Positions 647 to 13,403 are shown, numbered from the stretch's first letter. The stretch is 34,809 nucleotides of DNA from Candidatus Altarchaeales archaeon WOR_SM1_SCG (GCA_001723845.1 MCBE01000022.1:1-34809); one strand, 5' to 3'. The notes: generated from the sequence alone by a model not told the origin. Numbers and translations: made by a program.

Positions 647-1411
647 ATGGAGCAAACACAGTTTTTAAAAACAGCATTAATTGCAGCAAAAAAAGCAGAA
701 GAAGTGATTATGAAATATTACTCCGGAGAAATCAGATCAGAACTTAAAGGAGACGAGACACCTGTAACCGCTGCGGACAGGGAAGCTGAAAAAGTAATCG
801 CAGAAACAATTAAATCAAAATTCCCGAAGCATTCAATCCTGGGCGAGGAATCCGGTAAAAGCGGAAGTTCCGAATACACCTGGATAATAGACCCGATTGA
901 CGGCACAAAGAATTACATCCGCAAGATACCGATGTTTGCAACACAGATTGCTCTTGCGAAAAATAATGAATTAATTCTTGGAGTTTCAAATGCGCCGGCG
1001 CTTTGTGAACTGCTTTATGCAGAGCGCGGAAAAGGTACCTACTGTAATGGTAAAAAAATCAGCGTGAGTACGATGAAAAAATTAAAGGATTCGTTTATGA
1101 GTTTCGGCGGCATAAATTATTTTGAAAAAATAAATTTACTCGGGAATTTACTAAAACTCATCGGCATGATGCAGGGAAGAAGGGGTTTTGGTGACTTCTG
1201 GGGATACCACCTGCTTGCACAGGGAAAAATAGAAATCATGGTTGAGGCGGATATCAAGATATGGGATATCGCAGCCCTAACGGTGATTGTTGAAGAAGCG
1301 GGGGGGAAAGTTACCGACATTACAGGAAAAAAGGTTTCAACGGATACGAAAACGGTGCTTGCAACCAATGGTTTGCTGCATGATGAGGTTTTAAGGATTT
1401 TTAAGGAATGA
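647..1411 (+). CDS. Inositol monophosphatase / fructose-1,6-bisphosphatase family protein
   Basis: Li+-sensitive Mg2+-dependent phosphatase family. Archaeal members commonly hydrolyse both inositol-1-phosphate and fructose-1,6-bisphosphate. The metal-site motifs are all present: VTAAD (about 40-44), GEESG (66-70), DPIDGTKNY (82-90), and the C-terminal WDIAA motif (about 206). At 254 residues it is full length for the family. The ATG at 647 follows an AT-rich stretch with TTTAAATT-like elements and no ribosome-binding site, so a near-leaderless message is likely. The last ~150 bp of this gene recur as a frameshifted copy at 3520-3682, beyond a small accessory island. The exact substrate cannot be told from sequence. 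Confidence 0.93.
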   Translation: MEQTQFLKTALIAAKKAEEVIMKYYSGEIRSELKGDETPVTAADREAEKVIAETIKSKFPKHSILGEESGKSGSSEYTWIIDPIDGTKNYIRKIPMFATQIALAKNNELILGVSNAPALCELLYAERGKGTYCNGKKISVSTMKKLKDSFMSFGGINYFEKINLLGNLLKLIGMMQGRRGFGDFWGYHLLAQGKIEIMVEADIKIWDIAALTVIVEEAGGKVTDITGKKVSTDTKTVLATNGLLHDEVLRIFKE

Positions 1412-1466
1412 AAAATCTATTGTTTATTTTATCATTAACCAAATAATTAATGATAGAGAAGTTAAG

Positions 1467-2402
1467 ATGGGAAAATCAAAGAAAAATAATGGATGTGATG
1501 AATATCACAAATTTCAAAAAGCAAGAAGTATTTGCATACATTCTTTTGATAAACAATATAAAAAATCAAAAGATTCGGAAGAAGCACTTCAAAAAGCACT
1601 TAACACGGCAAAAATAACTCAAAAAAAACTAAATCTAACTCAAAGGCACTTTGCTGGTTTGGAAGGCGAAGTTATTTTTTATGGAAAATATGATGAAACA
1701 CTTGATTTTGATCTGCTACCGGATACTAAAAAAACACATGCTGATTTTCATTCCCCAATAACTCAAAAGTACTATGATGTTACAACAAATATAGATTATA
1801 AAGACCTTGGTAAGTACATCAGAGATGAGAATAGAGAATATTTATTATCTTGTGTTGACCGAAAATCAAGAGAAGTTGAGTTAATTCCAACTTCTTTCCC
1901 TAAATGCCCTAATTGCAGTTCCCCTGCCCATTATGTTGTATATTTAGACGATACAAAAATGACAACTTTTGACTCTTTTTGTGATTATCCCTATCAAGTT
2001 TTGAAATTGTATTGTTGTAATTGTCAATATTCAGAAGAATTAAAAACATTGGAGTGTGGTTTAAATGACCCATATAGAATGGCGTATGAGGAGTTAGAAT
2101 GTGAATATTATTTAAACATATCATATCCAAACAATAAAGAAAAATTAAGAACATTAGATAAAAGAATGGATGATTTAATAAAAGGATACTGGTTTGATAT
2201 TTTGAAGTTCTGTAAAAAAGAGTTTGATGTCTTCATTTCTGCCATTAGTCGTATGGAATCAGAAATGTTCCCACCAAGTAAGAATGATTTTTATGAGTAT
2301 GAATTGCCTGTATGGAGACATCCAATTTTAGATTTTGATAAATACAAGGGTAAAGATAGTAGGGAATTTTATTTCCCCGATTATGAAATGGGTTTAATTT
2401 AA
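1467..2402 (+). CDS. Hypothetical protein with CxxC zinc-binding cysteines, possible nuclease
   Basis: A 311-residue protein I do not recognise. The N-terminal 60 residues are Lys-rich and helical. A segment GLEGEVIFYG (64-73) ... HADF (91-94) ... YYDVTTNIDYKDL (102-114) has the spacing of a PD-(D/E)XK fold, but the usual lysine is threonine (DVT), so activity is doubtful. CPNC (147-150) and a second cluster LYCCNC (181-186) would form a zinc ribbon/knuckle. The C-terminal third is acidic and aromatic with no motif I can name. It sits 47 bp upstream of a more convincing PD-(D/E)XK protein on the same strand, so the two may be co-transcribed as an accessory or defence-like pair. Function unknown. 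Confidence 0.7.
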   Translation: MGKSKKNNGCDEYHKFQKARSICIHSFDKQYKKSKDSEEALQKALNTAKITQKKLNLTQRHFAGLEGEVIFYGKYDETLDFDLLPDTKKTHADFHSPITQKYYDVTTNIDYKDLGKYIRDENREYLLSCVDRKSREVELIPTSFPKCPNCSSPAHYVVYLDDTKMTTFDSFCDYPYQVLKLYCCNCQYSEELKTLECGLNDPYRMAYEELECEYYLNISYPNNKEKLRTLDKRMDDLIKGYWFDILKFCKKEFDVFISAISRMESEMFPPSKNDFYEYELPVWRHPILDFDKYKGKDSREFYFPDYEMGLI

Positions 2403-2449
2403 AATCTAATTAATAGTGGTACAAGCTAATACAACAGGGAGTAAATAAT

Positions 2450-2869
2450 ATGGCAAGAGATAAAACACAAAATTCAAATTTGGCATCAGAGTTTTATGTA
2501 GCATCCCAACTTTTTAGAGTGGGGTATGTGGTTACTATCACACTTGGTCACACAAAGGAAATAGATCTTATTGTTGTCCATCCTGATGGTAGAACAATTA
2601 CAATAGATGTAAAAGGGCTAAAAAACACTACGAATTGGCCATTAAGCCCGAAACTTGAGAAAGAAGATCATTTTTTTGTGCTTGTGTCATATCTAAATAA
2701 ATTTGCTGATTTAAATATCCATCCAGATGTGTTTGTGGTTCCATCACTTGAAATTAAGAGTTTGCTCACGCCTTGGAGTGGTAAAGCACAGGTTAAACAA
2801 AAAGGTGTAAGATATAGGGATGCGAAAAATAGTAAATACAAGGATGCATGGGAATTGCTGTTCAAATAA
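2450..2869 (+). CDS. PD-(D/E)XK nuclease-like protein
   Basis: A 139-residue single-domain protein. It shows a helix with a conserved acidic residue (SEFYVASQLFRVGY, E14), then KEIDLIVV (D39) and TIDVKG (D53-V-K55). This gives the E...D...(D/E)XK order of the restriction-endonuclease/resolvase superfamily. The length and layout resemble the small 'group I intron endonuclease/Holliday-resolvase-like' proteins that occur alone or with toxin-antitoxin genes. It lies downstream of the unknown zinc-cysteine gene (47 bp) and upstream of the RelB/ParE pair (63 bp). A purine-rich GGGAG occurs just before the ATG. Nucleolytic activity is inferred from the motif; the target is unknown. Confidence 0.75.
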   Translation: MARDKTQNSNLASEFYVASQLFRVGYVVTITLGHTKEIDLIVVHPDGRTITIDVKGLKNTTNWPLSPKLEKEDHFFVLVSYLNKFADLNIHPDVFVVPSLEIKSLLTPWSGKAQVKQKGVRYRDAKNSKYKDAWELLFK

Positions 2870-2932
2870 AACTTGGATTTATTTATTTTATTCACAAAAC
2901 TAAATACTTAACATAAACAAACCAATAATAAA

Positions 2933-3145
2933 ATGAACACAGTAAAAATACCTGCTAAATTAGAGGCAATTCATCTTATTGAAAAACTGCCGGATGATTA
3001 TTCCATGGATGAAATCATGGGCGAGTTGTATTTTAAGCAGCAGGTAAAACAAGGATTGCAAGATGTGGAGGGAGGCAGGGTGTATTCTCACGAGCAAATT
3101 AAAAATATGGTGGTAAAATGGCGAAAATCATCTGGTCGGATTTAG
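2933..3145 (+). CDS. RelB-like antitoxin of a type II toxin-antitoxin pair
   Basis: A 70-residue acidic/helical protein. Its layout EKLPDDYSMDEIMGELYFKQ ... GLQDVEGGRVYSHEQIKN is typical of a small antitoxin family found directly upstream of ParE/RelE toxins. The gene overlaps the downstream toxin by 28 bp, the usual translational coupling of such modules. The antitoxin would bind and neutralise the toxin and autoregulate the operon; this is family knowledge. No palindromic operator is obvious in the short AT-rich upstream gap. Confidence 0.82.
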   Translation: MNTVKIPAKLEAIHLIEKLPDDYSMDEIMGELYFKQQVKQGLQDVEGGRVYSHEQIKNMVVKWRKSSGRI

Positions 3146-3432
3146 CAAAGGAACATTTAAGAAAGATTGACTCTTATATTTCAGAGGGATCTCCTTTCTA
3201 CTCTATTATTTTTATTGACAGGTTAATCGCTTCTGTTGAGAAGATTGGAGTATTCCCGAAATGTGGAAGGAGGGTACCTGAATTTGGTAAAGATAACCTG
3301 AGGGAAATTTTCTTTCATAAATACAGAATCGTGTACCTGATTGATGATGATACCGTAAAGGTATTGGCTATTGTTCATGGAGCAATGGATATTATAAAAA
3401 AACGAAAGCGAGAACGATGGGAATTCAAATAA
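3118..3432 (+). CDS. ParE/RelE-family toxin
   Basis: A 104-residue protein with the ParE/RelE fold signature. It starts with a beta strand KIIWSDLAKEHLRKIDSYI, followed by helix 2 and the core FPKCGRRVPEFGKDNLREIFFHKYRIVYLIDDDTVKVLAIVHGAMD. This matches the YRIVY..D...V.....I.H family pattern. RelE-type members are ribosome-dependent mRNA interferases and ParE members poison gyrase. The sequence resembles the ParE-like branch but I cannot assign the target. It is coupled to the antitoxin by a 28-bp overlap. It lies on a small island between the intact phosphatase gene and a decayed copy of that gene's 3' end. Confidence 0.88.
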   Translation: MAKIIWSDLAKEHLRKIDSYISEGSPFYSIIFIDRLIASVEKIGVFPKCGRRVPEFGKDNLREIFFHKYRIVYLIDDDTVKVLAIVHGAMDIIKKRKRERWEFK

Positions 3433-3472
3433 TGGAGTCAATTTCAAAAATAATTTAATCAAAATTCTAAGT

Positions 3473-3519
3473 GTATTCCTAAAAAGGAATACGCTGGCTC
3501 TCGTCGGGAGCCGCCCGAC
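3473..3519. repeat. Two adjacent perfect hairpins at the edge of the duplicated phosphatase segment
   Basis: GTATTCCT-AAAA-AGGAATAC (3473-3492) is a perfect 8-bp stem with a 4-base loop. Ten bases later GTCGGG-AGCCG-CCCGAC (3503-3519) is a perfect 6-bp GC stem with a 5-base loop. The second hairpin ends exactly where similarity to the phosphatase gene begins (3520). They could be a transcript end for the toxin-antitoxin operon, a REP-like palindrome, or the scar of a mobile element. Confidence 0.55.
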
Positions 3520-3682
3520 TGGGATATTGCAGCACTTGCGGTGATTGTTGAAGAAGCGGGGGGGGAAAGTTACCGACATTAGAGGAAAGCCGGTTTCAAC
3601 GGATACGAAAACGGTGCTTGCAACTAATGGTTTGCTGCATGATGAGGTTTTAGGGGTTTTTAGAGGAGAGATTGTACTATAA
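3520..3682 (+). pseudogene. Frameshifted 3' fragment of an inositol-monophosphatase gene
   Basis: This stretch repeats the last ~150 bp of the intact phosphatase gene (1262-1411) at roughly 90% identity. It starts at TGGGATAT (the WDIAA motif) and runs through GGTTTGCTGCATGATGAGG. The run of seven G in the intact gene is eight here, which shifts the frame and gives an immediate TAG. If corrected, the frame would end in a slightly different C-terminus with a TAA at 3680-3682. Many of the differences are third-position or conservative, so the copy was probably under coding selection before it decayed. No upstream part of the gene is present. Confidence 0.85.
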
Positions 3683-3780: not shown

Positions 3781-3858
3781 ATTTAGATAAAATTTGAATT
3801 GAATTTGCCGGGCACAAAATTAATGAAATTATTGATTTTTTCCCGGAGGAACGGTCTT

Positions 3859-3981
3859 GAGTTACACATCCGGCTTTTTCCGGTTAAAAACGGAAGACCC
3901 GATATTGGAACATGGCAGAGCGTTTTTCTCATGGAACCTGGCGGTGTGAGAACAAGAAGTGTTGTTGCCAGGAGATTTTAG
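3859..3981 (+). pseudogene. C-terminal fragment of a YjbQ/UPF0047 (secondary thiamine-phosphate synthase) gene
   Basis: The open frame 3799-3981 starts with TTG and has no convincing beginning. Its last ~30 residues (PVKNGRPDIGTWQSVFLMEP, then GGVRTRSVV) match the characteristic YjbQ C-terminus: NG...GTWQ, a hydrophobic strand ending in E, then G.R.R. Intact YjbQ proteins are about 130-140 residues and carry conserved histidines upstream; those are absent here. I read this as the 3' relic of a lost gene, downstream of the phosphatase relic and convergent with the amylase gene. YjbQ is a small cytoplasmic protein of poorly settled function. Confidence 0.6.
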
Positions 3982-5749: not shown

Positions 5750-5858
5750 TTTTAGACCTCTTTTAATTTATTTTTTAATTTTATAATTGATTTAATTTAT
5801 AATTGATTTTATTAATTATAACTTAATTCTTTATATAGTCACATACAGTAATGTGTTT

Positions 5859-5947
5859 TCAGCGACAATTTTTTGTCCCGGCATACCTTCAGCGACAATT
5901 TTTTGTCCCGATTACCTCTCCAGAGACAATTTTTTGTCGCACAGACA
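5859..5947. repeat. Three tandem palindromic GACAATTTTTTGTC motifs
   Basis: AGCGACAATTTTTTGTCCCG occurs at 5861-5880 and again at 5891-5910. A variant AGAGACAATTTTTTGTCGC lies at 5922-5940. The period is 30-31 bp. Each core is itself a palindrome (GACAA...TTGTC), and the last unit runs into GCACAGACA. They sit in the divergent gap between the amylase and PAC2 genes, about 110-190 bp from either start. Possible readings are a three-site operator, or the multiple transposase-binding sites of one end of an IS21/Tn7-like element whose body is gone. No transposase gene is nearby. Confidence 0.75.
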
Positions 5948-9585: not shown

Positions 9586-11571
9586 TCATTTCCCTATAAA
9601 TAATAAAATTATTATGATAACCAATAGGACGCCAATAATGATATACAGAAGGTACCCTCTACTTCCCTTTGGTTGTTTGGAAGGACTTTCTCTGGAATCC
9701 TGTGACTCCTCTGGTTCTTCAACTACAGGAATGTCTTTTATATATATCTTCCCTGATTTTTCACCGGTGAATGATTCACCAACCTTTGAATTTTCCGCAG
9801 TCATCTGTAAACTGTAATCCAGTTGCTGAATATTGGGGTCGGTTAATTCAATATTGCATTTCAAGAGGATTTTATCATACTGCTTTAATTCTCCTTTGTT
9901 CAGCATCGCAATCCCGATGTTTGAGTCCTCTATTCCATCGCATTGGGCAATCACCCCGCCGCTTGTTATTCTCATGGAAATATGTAAATTATTCAATGTA
10001 TCAGCACCAAGATTCACAACACCAGCAGAACACCGAGCTAATTTTTTATTTTTATCAAAATATGCCCTGTCACATTGTAAATTTGTGTCAATATTCGGGA
10101 CTTCAACTTCAATTGGTTTCTCAACACCATTAATCTTTAAAATCCCATGATAAGACCTGTACGATGAAATCTTCGTTGGGACCTCAAGATAAAGATATTT
10201 ATCCATTTCTGCCGTTGAAATTCTGAACGGCTCTACTTCCTGAAACCAATCTGCGACCTCTCCTGAAACATGGATCTCAACATTATTTACTTCGCCTTTA
10301 TCTGTGATGAGTGTAAGTTTCTTGTAGCCGCTGTATCCGGGAGGAATGAACATCCGTATCTTTTCAATATCTTCAATTTTATTTCCGTCAACTTTTACAA
10401 TGAGGGTGATTCTCTGGCATTTACTGTCTTTGCAGTAGTTGGTTAAACATTCATTATCAGTGGAGCAGGATTCGTCATTTTGTTTTTTAGGAAGGCATTT
10501 GTGGTCTGAACAGTATCTGGGGGAGTCGCAATCTGTGTCGGTTTTGCAGTAGCCCGGCGGTCTGCAAACTCCATCAACACAGTTGCTGCTTAAACATTCT
10601 TCATTTCCCAAACAGGGATTGTCTTCTTTCTTTTTGTCGCGGCAGATTTTATCTGAACCGCAGAAGCCGTCGGAATCACAGTTGGAATGTACAAAGCAGG
10701 ATTTTGGAGGGGTTGGTGGATGTTCATTAAAGTCGTAAATTGATTTGCTTGCATCAGTGCCATCTGTCCAGAAATTAGAATCTGTCTCGCTGTAAAGTGT
10801 CATTGATTTTTCACATGGGTTAGTGTAAGCTTCTATGTAGATGGTAAACCCATGGTTTCCCTGTACACACCCCGTTGCAAAATATATGTCGTGTACTCCT
10901 TGTGTCAAACATTTAGTGATATATTCTACTCCATTAATGCCCCTAAACTCACAATTTCCCTGATCAATACTAATTAGTCCTCGGATGGACTCATGGACTT
11001 TAAATTTTGCTTTCCCTTCCTTTATAGAACAGTCAGGAACCATTAACTTTAGATTTAGATAAGAACAGTCCTTAATACTCCCTTTAAATTTAATCCTCTT
11101 AAACACATTCGCTTGTTGTGTATAATACACAGCAGAATCTCTCACCTGCTCCTCTCTCCATTCTGAAATGCCTCTTTCATTAATATTCGCAATCTGCATA
11201 ACTTCCCTCTCCAGTACATCTTTCTGTGCCAAACTGAACCCTTTCGTACTCCCAACCTTAACAACTCCATTCCTGTAAACATACCCCCAGTCCCCTGTCG
11301 GGAATTGAAACGCAATTCTCTCATCGCTCTGCTCTTTAAGTTCATAATTCAGTTTCGTGCAGAAATCATTCAACTCAATGGTTTTTTCAAGGTTTACGGA
11401 AACGCCTGAATTGAAACTTGCGGCATCCGCTGCTCCGATGCAGGAACTAAAAATTAATAAAATAATTAATGCTTTCGCTGCGGCTTCGTTTAAATTTTCA
11501 ATTAATTTTTTTGCTTCATTGCTTTTGTTCCGGTTTTCGTTTCCTTTTTGGTTTTTAATTTTGGTTTTCAT
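9586..11571 (-). CDS. Cysteine-rich membrane-anchored surface protein (paralogue 2)
   Basis: A 661-residue tandem paralogue of the 7435-9423 product with the same layout. It has a Lys-rich N-terminus, a hydrophobic signal segment (ALIILLIFSSCIGAADA), an ectodomain, a cysteine-rich block (CFVHSNCDSDGFCGSDKICR ...), a C-terminal beta-rich region and a final transmembrane helix (LYIIIGVLLVIIIILLF). The N-terminal 150 residues, cysteine block and C-terminal half are strongly conserved between the two. Residues about 170-265 differ much more and include extra cysteines here (GNCEF, TGCVQGN). A GAGG-type ribosome-binding site precedes the ATG. The 150-bp gap to paralogue 1 is AT-rich with no other feature. 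Confidence 0.88.
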   Translation of the reverse strand: MKTKIKNQKGNENRNKSNEAKKLIENLNEAAAKALIILLIFSSCIGAADAASFNSGVSVNLEKTIELNDFCTKLNYELKEQSDERIAFQFPTGDWGYVYRNGVVKVGSTKGFSLAQKDVLEREVMQIANINERGISEWREEQVRDSAVYYTQQANVFKRIKFKGSIKDCSYLNLKLMVPDCSIKEGKAKFKVHESIRGLISIDQGNCEFRGINGVEYITKCLTQGVHDIYFATGCVQGNHGFTIYIEAYTNPCEKSMTLYSETDSNFWTDGTDASKSIYDFNEHPPTPPKSCFVHSNCDSDGFCGSDKICRDKKKEDNPCLGNEECLSSNCVDGVCRPPGYCKTDTDCDSPRYCSDHKCLPKKQNDESCSTDNECLTNYCKDSKCQRITLIVKVDGNKIEDIEKIRMFIPPGYSGYKKLTLITDKGEVNNVEIHVSGEVADWFQEVEPFRISTAEMDKYLYLEVPTKISSYRSYHGILKINGVEKPIEVEVPNIDTNLQCDRAYFDKNKKLARCSAGVVNLGADTLNNLHISMRITSGGVIAQCDGIEDSNIGIAMLNKGELKQYDKILLKCNIELTDPNIQQLDYSLQMTAENSKVGESFTGEKSGKIYIKDIPVVEEPEESQDSRESPSKQPKGSRGYLLYIIIGVLLVIIIILLFIGK

Positions 11572-11996: not shown

Positions 11997-13403
11997 TTAC
12001 GCCCCATTTTGTCTGGATATGACCCACAAATATCGTTTGTCCTTAAAAGACCCAACCTCATGGATTTGATTTTTCTTGACCAAATCAGTTAAATCCCTGG
12101 TTGCGGTTTGTCTGGACACATTAAATTTCTCTCTATATTTTTTGTTTGTGACCACTTCCCCTTCATTAACCATCAATCTCAAAGCTTCAATCTGCCTTTC
12201 ATTCAATCCAAGTTCCTTGAGATCAACCTTGCCTTCTTCAGGTATTAGCGAAAATAAATCGTCAGGCGCATGAAATTTAACCATGAATCCCCCGCAGATC
12301 TCCTCAAAATCCGGCTCTTTGAGTCCGTGTTCAACACACCATTTCACTATCTTGTTTGTTCCCTTCCCCCACTGTTCAATATTCTTTATGAGAAAGAATG
12401 CATCTGCAATAAGCCGGTTTCTTGGCACTGAATCATGTTTTTGTTTAAGCATTTCAGGTGTTAATGGTTCAGGTAATGCTCCGGGGTCGGTGATTTCAAC
12501 CCTGTCATCAAACACCGCAAGTTTGATATTGCCCGGACATTCATAATCCCTATGACAGACTGCGTTTGCAATCGCTTCTCGCAATGCGTCAGGAGGATAC
12601 TCCCACATTTCCTCTCTTTTGAACATTACAACCTTTGCAGCTTTTTTGATATGAGAAAGAATAAACTTTTCAGCATCATCAACCTGATCAATAATATTAC
12701 CTTCAATTAGTTTCATATCCAGGAAATCAACCGCTGCGATGCCCTTGAAGCGCGCACACCTTATTCTTGCCTGCAGGAAGAAGTTTTGCGGATTCCTTCC
12801 AAATAATAAAACAGCAGCGTTTGTCAATTTTCCTTCTTTGAATAATTTTAGCCGCTCAAGAGCTTCTTTTAAAGGTGTTTCCATATCAACATCAAAATTT
12901 CTCTCGTGTTTTGCCTTTCTCAAAAACCATTTCACTTTTTCTTCATCAATATCATCCAATATTGCGCCATCACAAATCAGCCCATCCCAGTAAATTTTTT
13001 TACTCTCAATTACAAGTTTCCTTATCTCAGAAGATGAAATCCTGTGTCTTGATCTCCCAACTCTTTTATAAGCCCGTCCCTTGAAAAGCACAGGTTTTTC
13101 CTGTGACTCGGGAATTTCAATTTCAATTATTTTTTTATCCTCTAAACTATCAATTCCTATAGAAGGAAATACCTGTGGGTCAGTATGCTGTTTTATGTAA
13201 TTTGCTAATTCCTCTATTGTATTTTTACCGATTTCAACCCCGGTAATTTTGTTTTTATCTTCATCAAAACCAACAACAATTGTGCCCCCTTTGGTGTTTG
13301 ATAATGCTGATGCAGCTTCTCCGATTTGATCTTTTAATCGCAGGGATTTCTTGAATTCCACATTCTCTGATTCTCCTTTTTTTAGTAATTCTTTAAGATT
13401 CAT
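11997..13403 (-). CDS. Schlafen/AlbA_2 domain ATP-binding regulator (COG2865-like)
   Basis: A 468-residue protein. The N-terminal AlbA_2/Schlafen-like domain (about 1-130) shows ESENVEFKKS and TKGGTIVVGFDEDKNKITGV. A GHKL-type ATPase-like domain (about 240-380) carries REAIANAVCHRDY, VFDDRVEITDPGALPEPL and EQWGKGTNKIV. The C-terminal winged helix has NERQIEALRLMVNEGEVVTN and FNVSRQTATRDLTDLVKK. Such proteins are often annotated as RecG-like helicases, but no helicase motifs are present. They are usually treated as putative transcription regulators or conflict-system components. The gene ends in RQNGA just before a patch of tandem repeats and a homologous relic, so the original protein was probably longer. 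It lies in a minus-strand block with surface proteins and a JAMM protease; a regulatory link is only inferred. Confidence 0.9.
   Translation of the reverse strand: MNLKELLKKGESENVEFKKSLRLKDQIGEAASALSNTKGGTIVVGFDEDKNKITGVEIGKNTIEELANYIKQHTDPQVFPSIGIDSLEDKKIIEIEIPESQEKPVLFKGRAYKRVGRSRHRISSSEIRKLVIESKKIYWDGLICDGAILDDIDEEKVKWFLRKAKHERNFDVDMETPLKEALERLKLFKEGKLTNAAVLLFGRNPQNFFLQARIRCARFKGIAAVDFLDMKLIEGNIIDQVDDAEKFILSHIKKAAKVVMFKREEMWEYPPDALREAIANAVCHRDYECPGNIKLAVFDDRVEITDPGALPEPLTPEMLKQKHDSVPRNRLIADAFFLIKNIEQWGKGTNKIVKWCVEHGLKEPDFEEICGGFMVKFHAPDDLFSLIPEEGKVDLKELGLNERQIEALRLMVNEGEVVTNKKYREKFNVSRQTATRDLTDLVKKNQIHEVGSFKDKRYLWVISRQNGA

Follow-up and report, generated by a model that had tools for sequence, protein, structure and literature searches.

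A dispersed folded repeat at one end of gene-end insertions with long target duplications in a Candidatus Altarchaeales archaeon

IS91/ISCR elements and Helitrons have one defined hairpin end and one loose end, and they capture neighbouring genes. In integron cassettes and clusters of attC sites lacking an integrase (CALIN), a folded site stands at the 3' end of the cargo, which includes toxin-antitoxin and defence genes. Archaeal integrons are the subject of PMC9668308. In Helicobacter, restriction-modification genes were reported to insert with long target duplication (Nobusato et al. 2000, as cited in PMC1643837 and PMC3031569). Here we analyse a stretch of 34,809 nucleotides (the window) from Candidatus Altarchaeales archaeon WOR_SM1_SCG (GCA_001723845.1, MCBE01000022.1:1-34809), where an island of accessory genes follows an intact phosphatase gene and ends in a dispersed 59-bp sequence, termed R, after which the 3' end of the phosphatase gene directly recurs. 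The island is almost certainly an R-ended insertion with target duplication. The fuller account, in which an R-ended mobile element entered the phosphatase 3' end by a one-ended insertion mechanism, is somewhat favoured by the evidence set out below.

The window island fits the pattern described from Helicobacter: accessory genes lie between long, variable direct repeats of the target, the cargo of the R family likewise includes restriction-modification-type genes, and an empty site is found in relatives (for a cargo-free copy in genome G019). The R family differs in having a conserved folded end at a precise junction and mostly short, cargo-free forms; such an end does not figure in what the two citing accounts (PMC1643837, PMC3031569) relate of the Helicobacter insertions.

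A preliminary description of this DNA had recognised the two phosphatase 3' ends, at about 90% identity, and a G7-to-G8 frameshift in the second. Both observations were confirmed by alignment of the direct repeats (148 aligned bp, 91.2% identity; Table 1): the upstream copy, which encodes the intact C-terminus of the phosphatase, has G7 at 1300-1306, and in the downstream copy a G8 at 3558-3565 shifts the reading frame. That description had no place for R, and yet the second copy starts, at position 3520, exactly where R (3461-3519) stops. When the sequence immediately before the second copy was searched against its own genome, an archaeal assembly of 2.55 Mb that is 74% complete, 45 matches were obtained, of which the top ones clearly represent a repeat. 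With the model R1, 49 copies were detected in this genome at E<=0.01 and 57 at E<=1, R of the window itself scoring 70.4 bits (E 9.7e-15).

In this genome, a copy of upstream DNA was found within 9 nt after R at 36 of the 51 R ends with enough flank, compared with 27 of 416 random points, showing that the duplication adjacent to R is not due to chance. When all genomes were considered, 54 R loci had such copies, 18-524 bp long (median 60) and 70-100% identical, and at eleven of these loci the copies were 100% identical. The elements ranged from ~60 bp (R alone) to 9,017 bp, the automatic length being an underestimate at the few loci that are tandem arrays. The layout changes from X-A-Y to X-A'-(S)R-A-Y, so that the target from the junction onward is present twice. 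Dozens of sequences unrelated to one another serve as targets, and in other genomes tRNA genes are often hit. Integration at a gene end, one of the readings in the preliminary description, holds for the island, which has dozens of equivalents in this genome. At most loci with a sense insertion, the stop codon lies within the duplicate or a few tens of bp from its end, and most antisense insertions have the start codon within the duplicate; the upstream gene survives because the duplication mostly reaches the gene end. At the start of A, an A is preferred at +7 and +12 and A or T at +13. On the X side of the junction nothing is conserved, and no motif resembling a target-adjacent motif (TAM) was seen.

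One R copy could be compared with its empty site. In G019, a 66-bp element is accompanied by a 56-bp duplication, and its flanks were searched in relatives. When joined with a single A, these flanks align continuously in G007 and G017, over 456 and 453 bp with 4 gaps each; the element is also absent from G009, where the alignment is less clean (458 bp, 18 gaps). Native sequence thus surrounds the downstream copy, and what was added is R together with a single A. For this cargo-free copy, the empty version of the site proves insertion with target duplication, and we infer the same history for the window locus. The preliminary description had also considered an old tandem duplication of the phosphatase gene, the second copy having eroded around, or been replaced by, the intervening island. 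A decayed second copy with 91% identity is what such a duplication would leave. However, the junction falls exactly at the 3' end of R, which is dispersed, unrelated genes and tRNAs across the genome have the same layout, and relatives show the site of another copy in its empty form, all of which makes a tandem duplication extremely unlikely.

Several lines of evidence show that R is a conserved folded sequence forming the 3' end of the element. The window copy has a fold z of -5.6, and an alignment of 19 R copies supported a hairpin (H1) followed by an H-type pseudoknot with stems S1 and S2 (covariation score 0.314 versus 0.128 in shuffles). Among R copies, the H1 stem UAUU/AAUA is swapped for GGCU/AGCC. 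S1 takes many sequences across the order, and S2 is nearly invariant, with whole compensations where it changes: CTGCG/CGCAG in three copies, GCCGG/CCGGC in one, and ATCGG/CCGAT in one from another genome. One of the searches that collected copies across the order required S1 and S2 to pair, and its copies enter one covariation test; a set of 31 copies was therefore made without requiring pairing, so as to avoid circularity. S1 was fully paired in 30 of these 31 copies, with six stem sequences. For the pseudoknot, covariation was computed on 18 distinct 22-mers: seven of the nine pairs vary on both sides, with a score of 0.428 versus 0.108. Moreover, in a variant copy of this genome (C18, S2 = CTGCG/CGCAG), the start of the duplication shifts with the predicted end of the knot. 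Rfam had no match at R, and 45 matches to an R-like pattern in viral contigs, none with stem pairing or duplication, were taken as chance. Separately, some R copies (L128 3553-3656, L127 9484-9632, L134 8859-9010) were seen to have 50-100 bp of additional palindromic sequence in the H1 loop, common to several loci.

The 3' end of the element is fixed and its left end is not. Indeed, four insertions in G013 have in common R and the stretch before it, but differ in their start points. The minimal elements of the genome under study begin near AAAATTCTAAG, at times with matching target sequence. Most sampled elements are short and cargo-free; at cargo-bearing loci, the segment between A' and R measures 1-9 kb. 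Cargo includes restriction-modification genes (C227), a SIR2-STAND protein with a ThsA-like domain (C55), PIN, HEPN_Swt1 and HD-CE proteins and, in the window, the ParE pair. At C225, an R remnant stands at the left end of a cargo-bearing insertion. As a separate observation, G013 has a longer cargo-free form (L274 9387-9631, L275 4291-4549), in which an R-like unit, its pseudoknot loop expanded, is followed by a ~75-bp linker and then R.

We searched 29 genomes with enzyme profiles; all are drafts (60-92% complete), so any single absence is weak and the absences are stronger together. Reverse transcriptase (RVT_1) is absent from this genome and from all R carriers and was found only in G004 and G028; a divergent one may be present in the drafts. 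The Y1 transposase has no match in this genome and, among R carriers, is found only in G018. TnpB also has none here, and among R carriers occurs in G013, G017 and G018. The Y2 HUH transposase was detected in no R carrier, and had no match in 14 named control genomes either. The tyrosine recombinase profile (PF00589) had six matches in this genome and none in six R carriers. Considered as the driver, none of these five enzymes tracks R: the genome under study, with the most R copies, has tyrosine recombinases and is without reverse transcriptase, Y1, Y2 and TnpB.

These results bear on three other explanations. By target-primed reverse transcription, R would be the 3' end of an RNA copied onto a nicked target, with the left end truncated as in long and short interspersed (LINE/SINE) retroposons. 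R insertions resemble these retroposons in their fixed, structured 3' end, variable 5' end and variable target duplications, and U.G wobbles are tolerated on the R strand. However, R carriers are without RVT_1, and cargo is found on either strand, some of it as antisense blocks of several genes, a pattern that speaks against retrocopied mRNAs; we hold this explanation to be unlikely.

Campbell-type integration, in which circles with R, cargo and a captured gene end would integrate by homologous recombination or a tyrosine recombinase and restore the gene, would yield the identical X-A-S-R-A layout with an intact gene, and would be in keeping with the island-like cargo and the tyrosine recombinases of this genome. 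It is nevertheless quite unlikely, given the dozens of unrelated targets instead of a single attachment site, the R carriers in which PF00589 is unmatched, and the ~60-bp elements that carry nothing. Moreover, the loci with 100% identical copies fit duplication at insertion; from captured arms one would expect differences.

A scaffold followed by a guide is the arrangement of RNA-guided TnpB-type systems, and a 3'-terminal pseudoknot directly before the target resembles it. R might accordingly serve a TnpA/TnpB-type (IS200/IS605-like) element as its right end and as the scaffold for a guide, namely the downstream sequence. Yet TnpB and Y1 are missing from this genome and most R carriers, the motif lies inside A and the X side, the expected place of a TAM, has none, and IS200/IS605-type elements are not known to make long target duplications. 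We thus regard such an element as very improbable.

For an R-ended element inserting from one end, the following order of events may be proposed. A nick at X|A would be joined to the 3' end of R, or would prime copying from it. Copying or transfer would proceed leftward through R and sometimes into the DNA upstream of the donor R, which would be how cargo is picked up from donor flanks. Host repair would then attach the free left end farther downstream in the target, giving the long duplication, and selection would retain insertions whose duplication reaches the gene end. R would act in this process as RNA or as DNA.

Six points weigh against this account. No driving enzyme was found among the families searched. 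The empty site belongs to the cargo-free G019 copy and not to the window locus. No second copy that could have served as donor of the window cargo was found in the 74%-complete assembly beyond a 57-bp match. The insertions of 1-9 kb that bear cargo might have arisen secondarily or as composites. Of the R ends examined for duplication, 15 of 51 lack a copy, several of them being near contig ends and others possibly decayed. Last, microhomology at the left junction is clear at a few sites only and is not general.

IS91/ISCR elements and Helitrons share with the R family one defined and one loose end; they differ from it in that the R family has long duplications and its carriers have no Y2 transposase. 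Like integron cassettes and CALIN, the R family has a folded sequence at the 3' end of its cargo, and toxin-antitoxin and defence genes as cargo; unlike them, it has long duplications, is scattered at gene ends instead of arrayed and shows no correlation with an integrase. Repetitive extragenic palindromes and miniature inverted-repeat transposable elements are similarly small, dispersed, hairpin-forming and non-coding, whereas R ends in a pseudoknot and is accompanied by target duplications of 18-524 bp, and this genome has no Y1. All together, the R family departs from every mobile-element class tested in features that define the class, and the duplication pattern itself is already known. 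Nothing in the open-access literature searched described the folded end, the cargo-free short forms or the occurrence in archaea, and an earlier account may exist elsewhere. We are evenly divided on whether R represents a new class of prokaryotic mobile element, with a folded end of 50-60 nt (RNA or single-stranded DNA), one-ended insertion at gene and tRNA ends, long duplications that spare the host gene and an unrecognised enzyme, ferrying defence and toxin-antitoxin genes. The mechanism becomes testable in a family that offers a defined folded end, an empty site, recent copies whose duplications are identical, and dozens of insertions in each genome. R insertion would explain how accessory genes enter compact archaeal genomes at gene ends while leaving genes unbroken.

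Of the 23 other genomes of the order, 10 had matches to the model R1, and of 77 from outside it, one had a weak match; the cross-genome search used strict filters, so that its negatives are not firm. The layout also occurs in other families of the order, frequently at tRNA genes. R was further noticed at the end of an RNA polymerase B subunit-like gene (read by eye) in two species, apparently at the same site (L277 ~10870-11025 in G007; L270/L271 in G013). The H1 hairpin sequences differ between the two, and the insertion is apparently inherited. Tandem arrays of R and duplicated target were seen at L131 (C283) 932-1238, L201 (C98) 9618-9803 and L197 (C300) 13039-13227, the last including a duplicated tRNA-Arg; these arrays suggest that the repeats do recombine, the process by which, according to the preliminary description, the island could be lost.

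Table 1. Features of the phosphatase locus and its island (window positions)
Feature	Position	Strand	Evidence
Inositol-monophosphatase/HisN-like phosphatase, intact; target gene left whole	647..1411	+	PF00459 1.2e-61; TIGR02067 2.6e-74, below curated cut-off
A', upstream copy of duplicated target; in-frame C-terminus, gene stop at 1411	1262..1407	+	Direct repeat with 3520-3667
S, cargo of the insertion, present once in this genome	1412..3460	+	Elsewhere just a 57-bp partial match
311-aa Cys4 protein (two CxxC), no family	1467..2402	+	No Pfam family
139-aa PD-(D/E)XK-like protein	2450..2869	+	Sub-threshold NERD 0.0023, PDDEXK_5 0.066
70-aa putative RelB/ParD-type antitoxin, overlaps toxin gene	2933..3145	+	Weak NF050811, E 0.02
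ParE/RelE-family toxin	3118..3432	+	PF05016 3e-18
R, dispersed folded repeat (hairpin + H-type pseudoknot) at the mobile element's 3' end	3461..3519	+	Model R1, covariation, fold
H1 hairpin of R, 3470-3480 pairs with 3485-3495	3470..3495	+	Fold; stem swaps among copies
H-type pseudoknot of R: S1 3497-3500/3508-3511, S2 3503-3507/3515-3519	3497..3519	+	Pairing and covariation
A, downstream phosphatase 3'-end copy, decayed, G8 frameshift	3520..3667	+	Alignment
3'-end fragment of another gene, 89% identical to R-associated target at C289	3703..3806	+	Alignment
YjbQ/UPF0047 C-terminal fragment	3799..3981	+	PF01894 4.4e-6; TIGR00149 covering profile 97-127 of 132 only

The genes between the repeats had been described as an unknown zinc-cysteine protein, a PD-(D/E)XK protein and a toxin-antitoxin pair. 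The ParE toxin and the Cys4 protein, which has no family, stand; the PD-(D/E)XK assignment remained below threshold and the antitoxin match is weak (Table 1). A search of the Protein Data Bank with the 139-aa protein returned implausible repeat-protein matches only and no credible relative. An archaeal NAC protein is encoded beside the phosphatase, according to a profile search. In a synteny search based on the phosphatase, the best named match was a Patescibacteria gene without synteny, and within the flanks examined in relatives no amylase, NAC or YjbQ gene lay beside the phosphatase; this genome is the sole member of its family among the genomes searched. Behind the island, three gene 3' ends stand in a row, namely the phosphatase copy, the 104-bp C289-like fragment and the YjbQ fragment. 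Further downstream (5858-5941), three 23-bp repeats TTCAGCGACAATTTTTTGTCCCG with ~30-bp spacing stand in the interval between amylase and the gene that follows it on the other strand.
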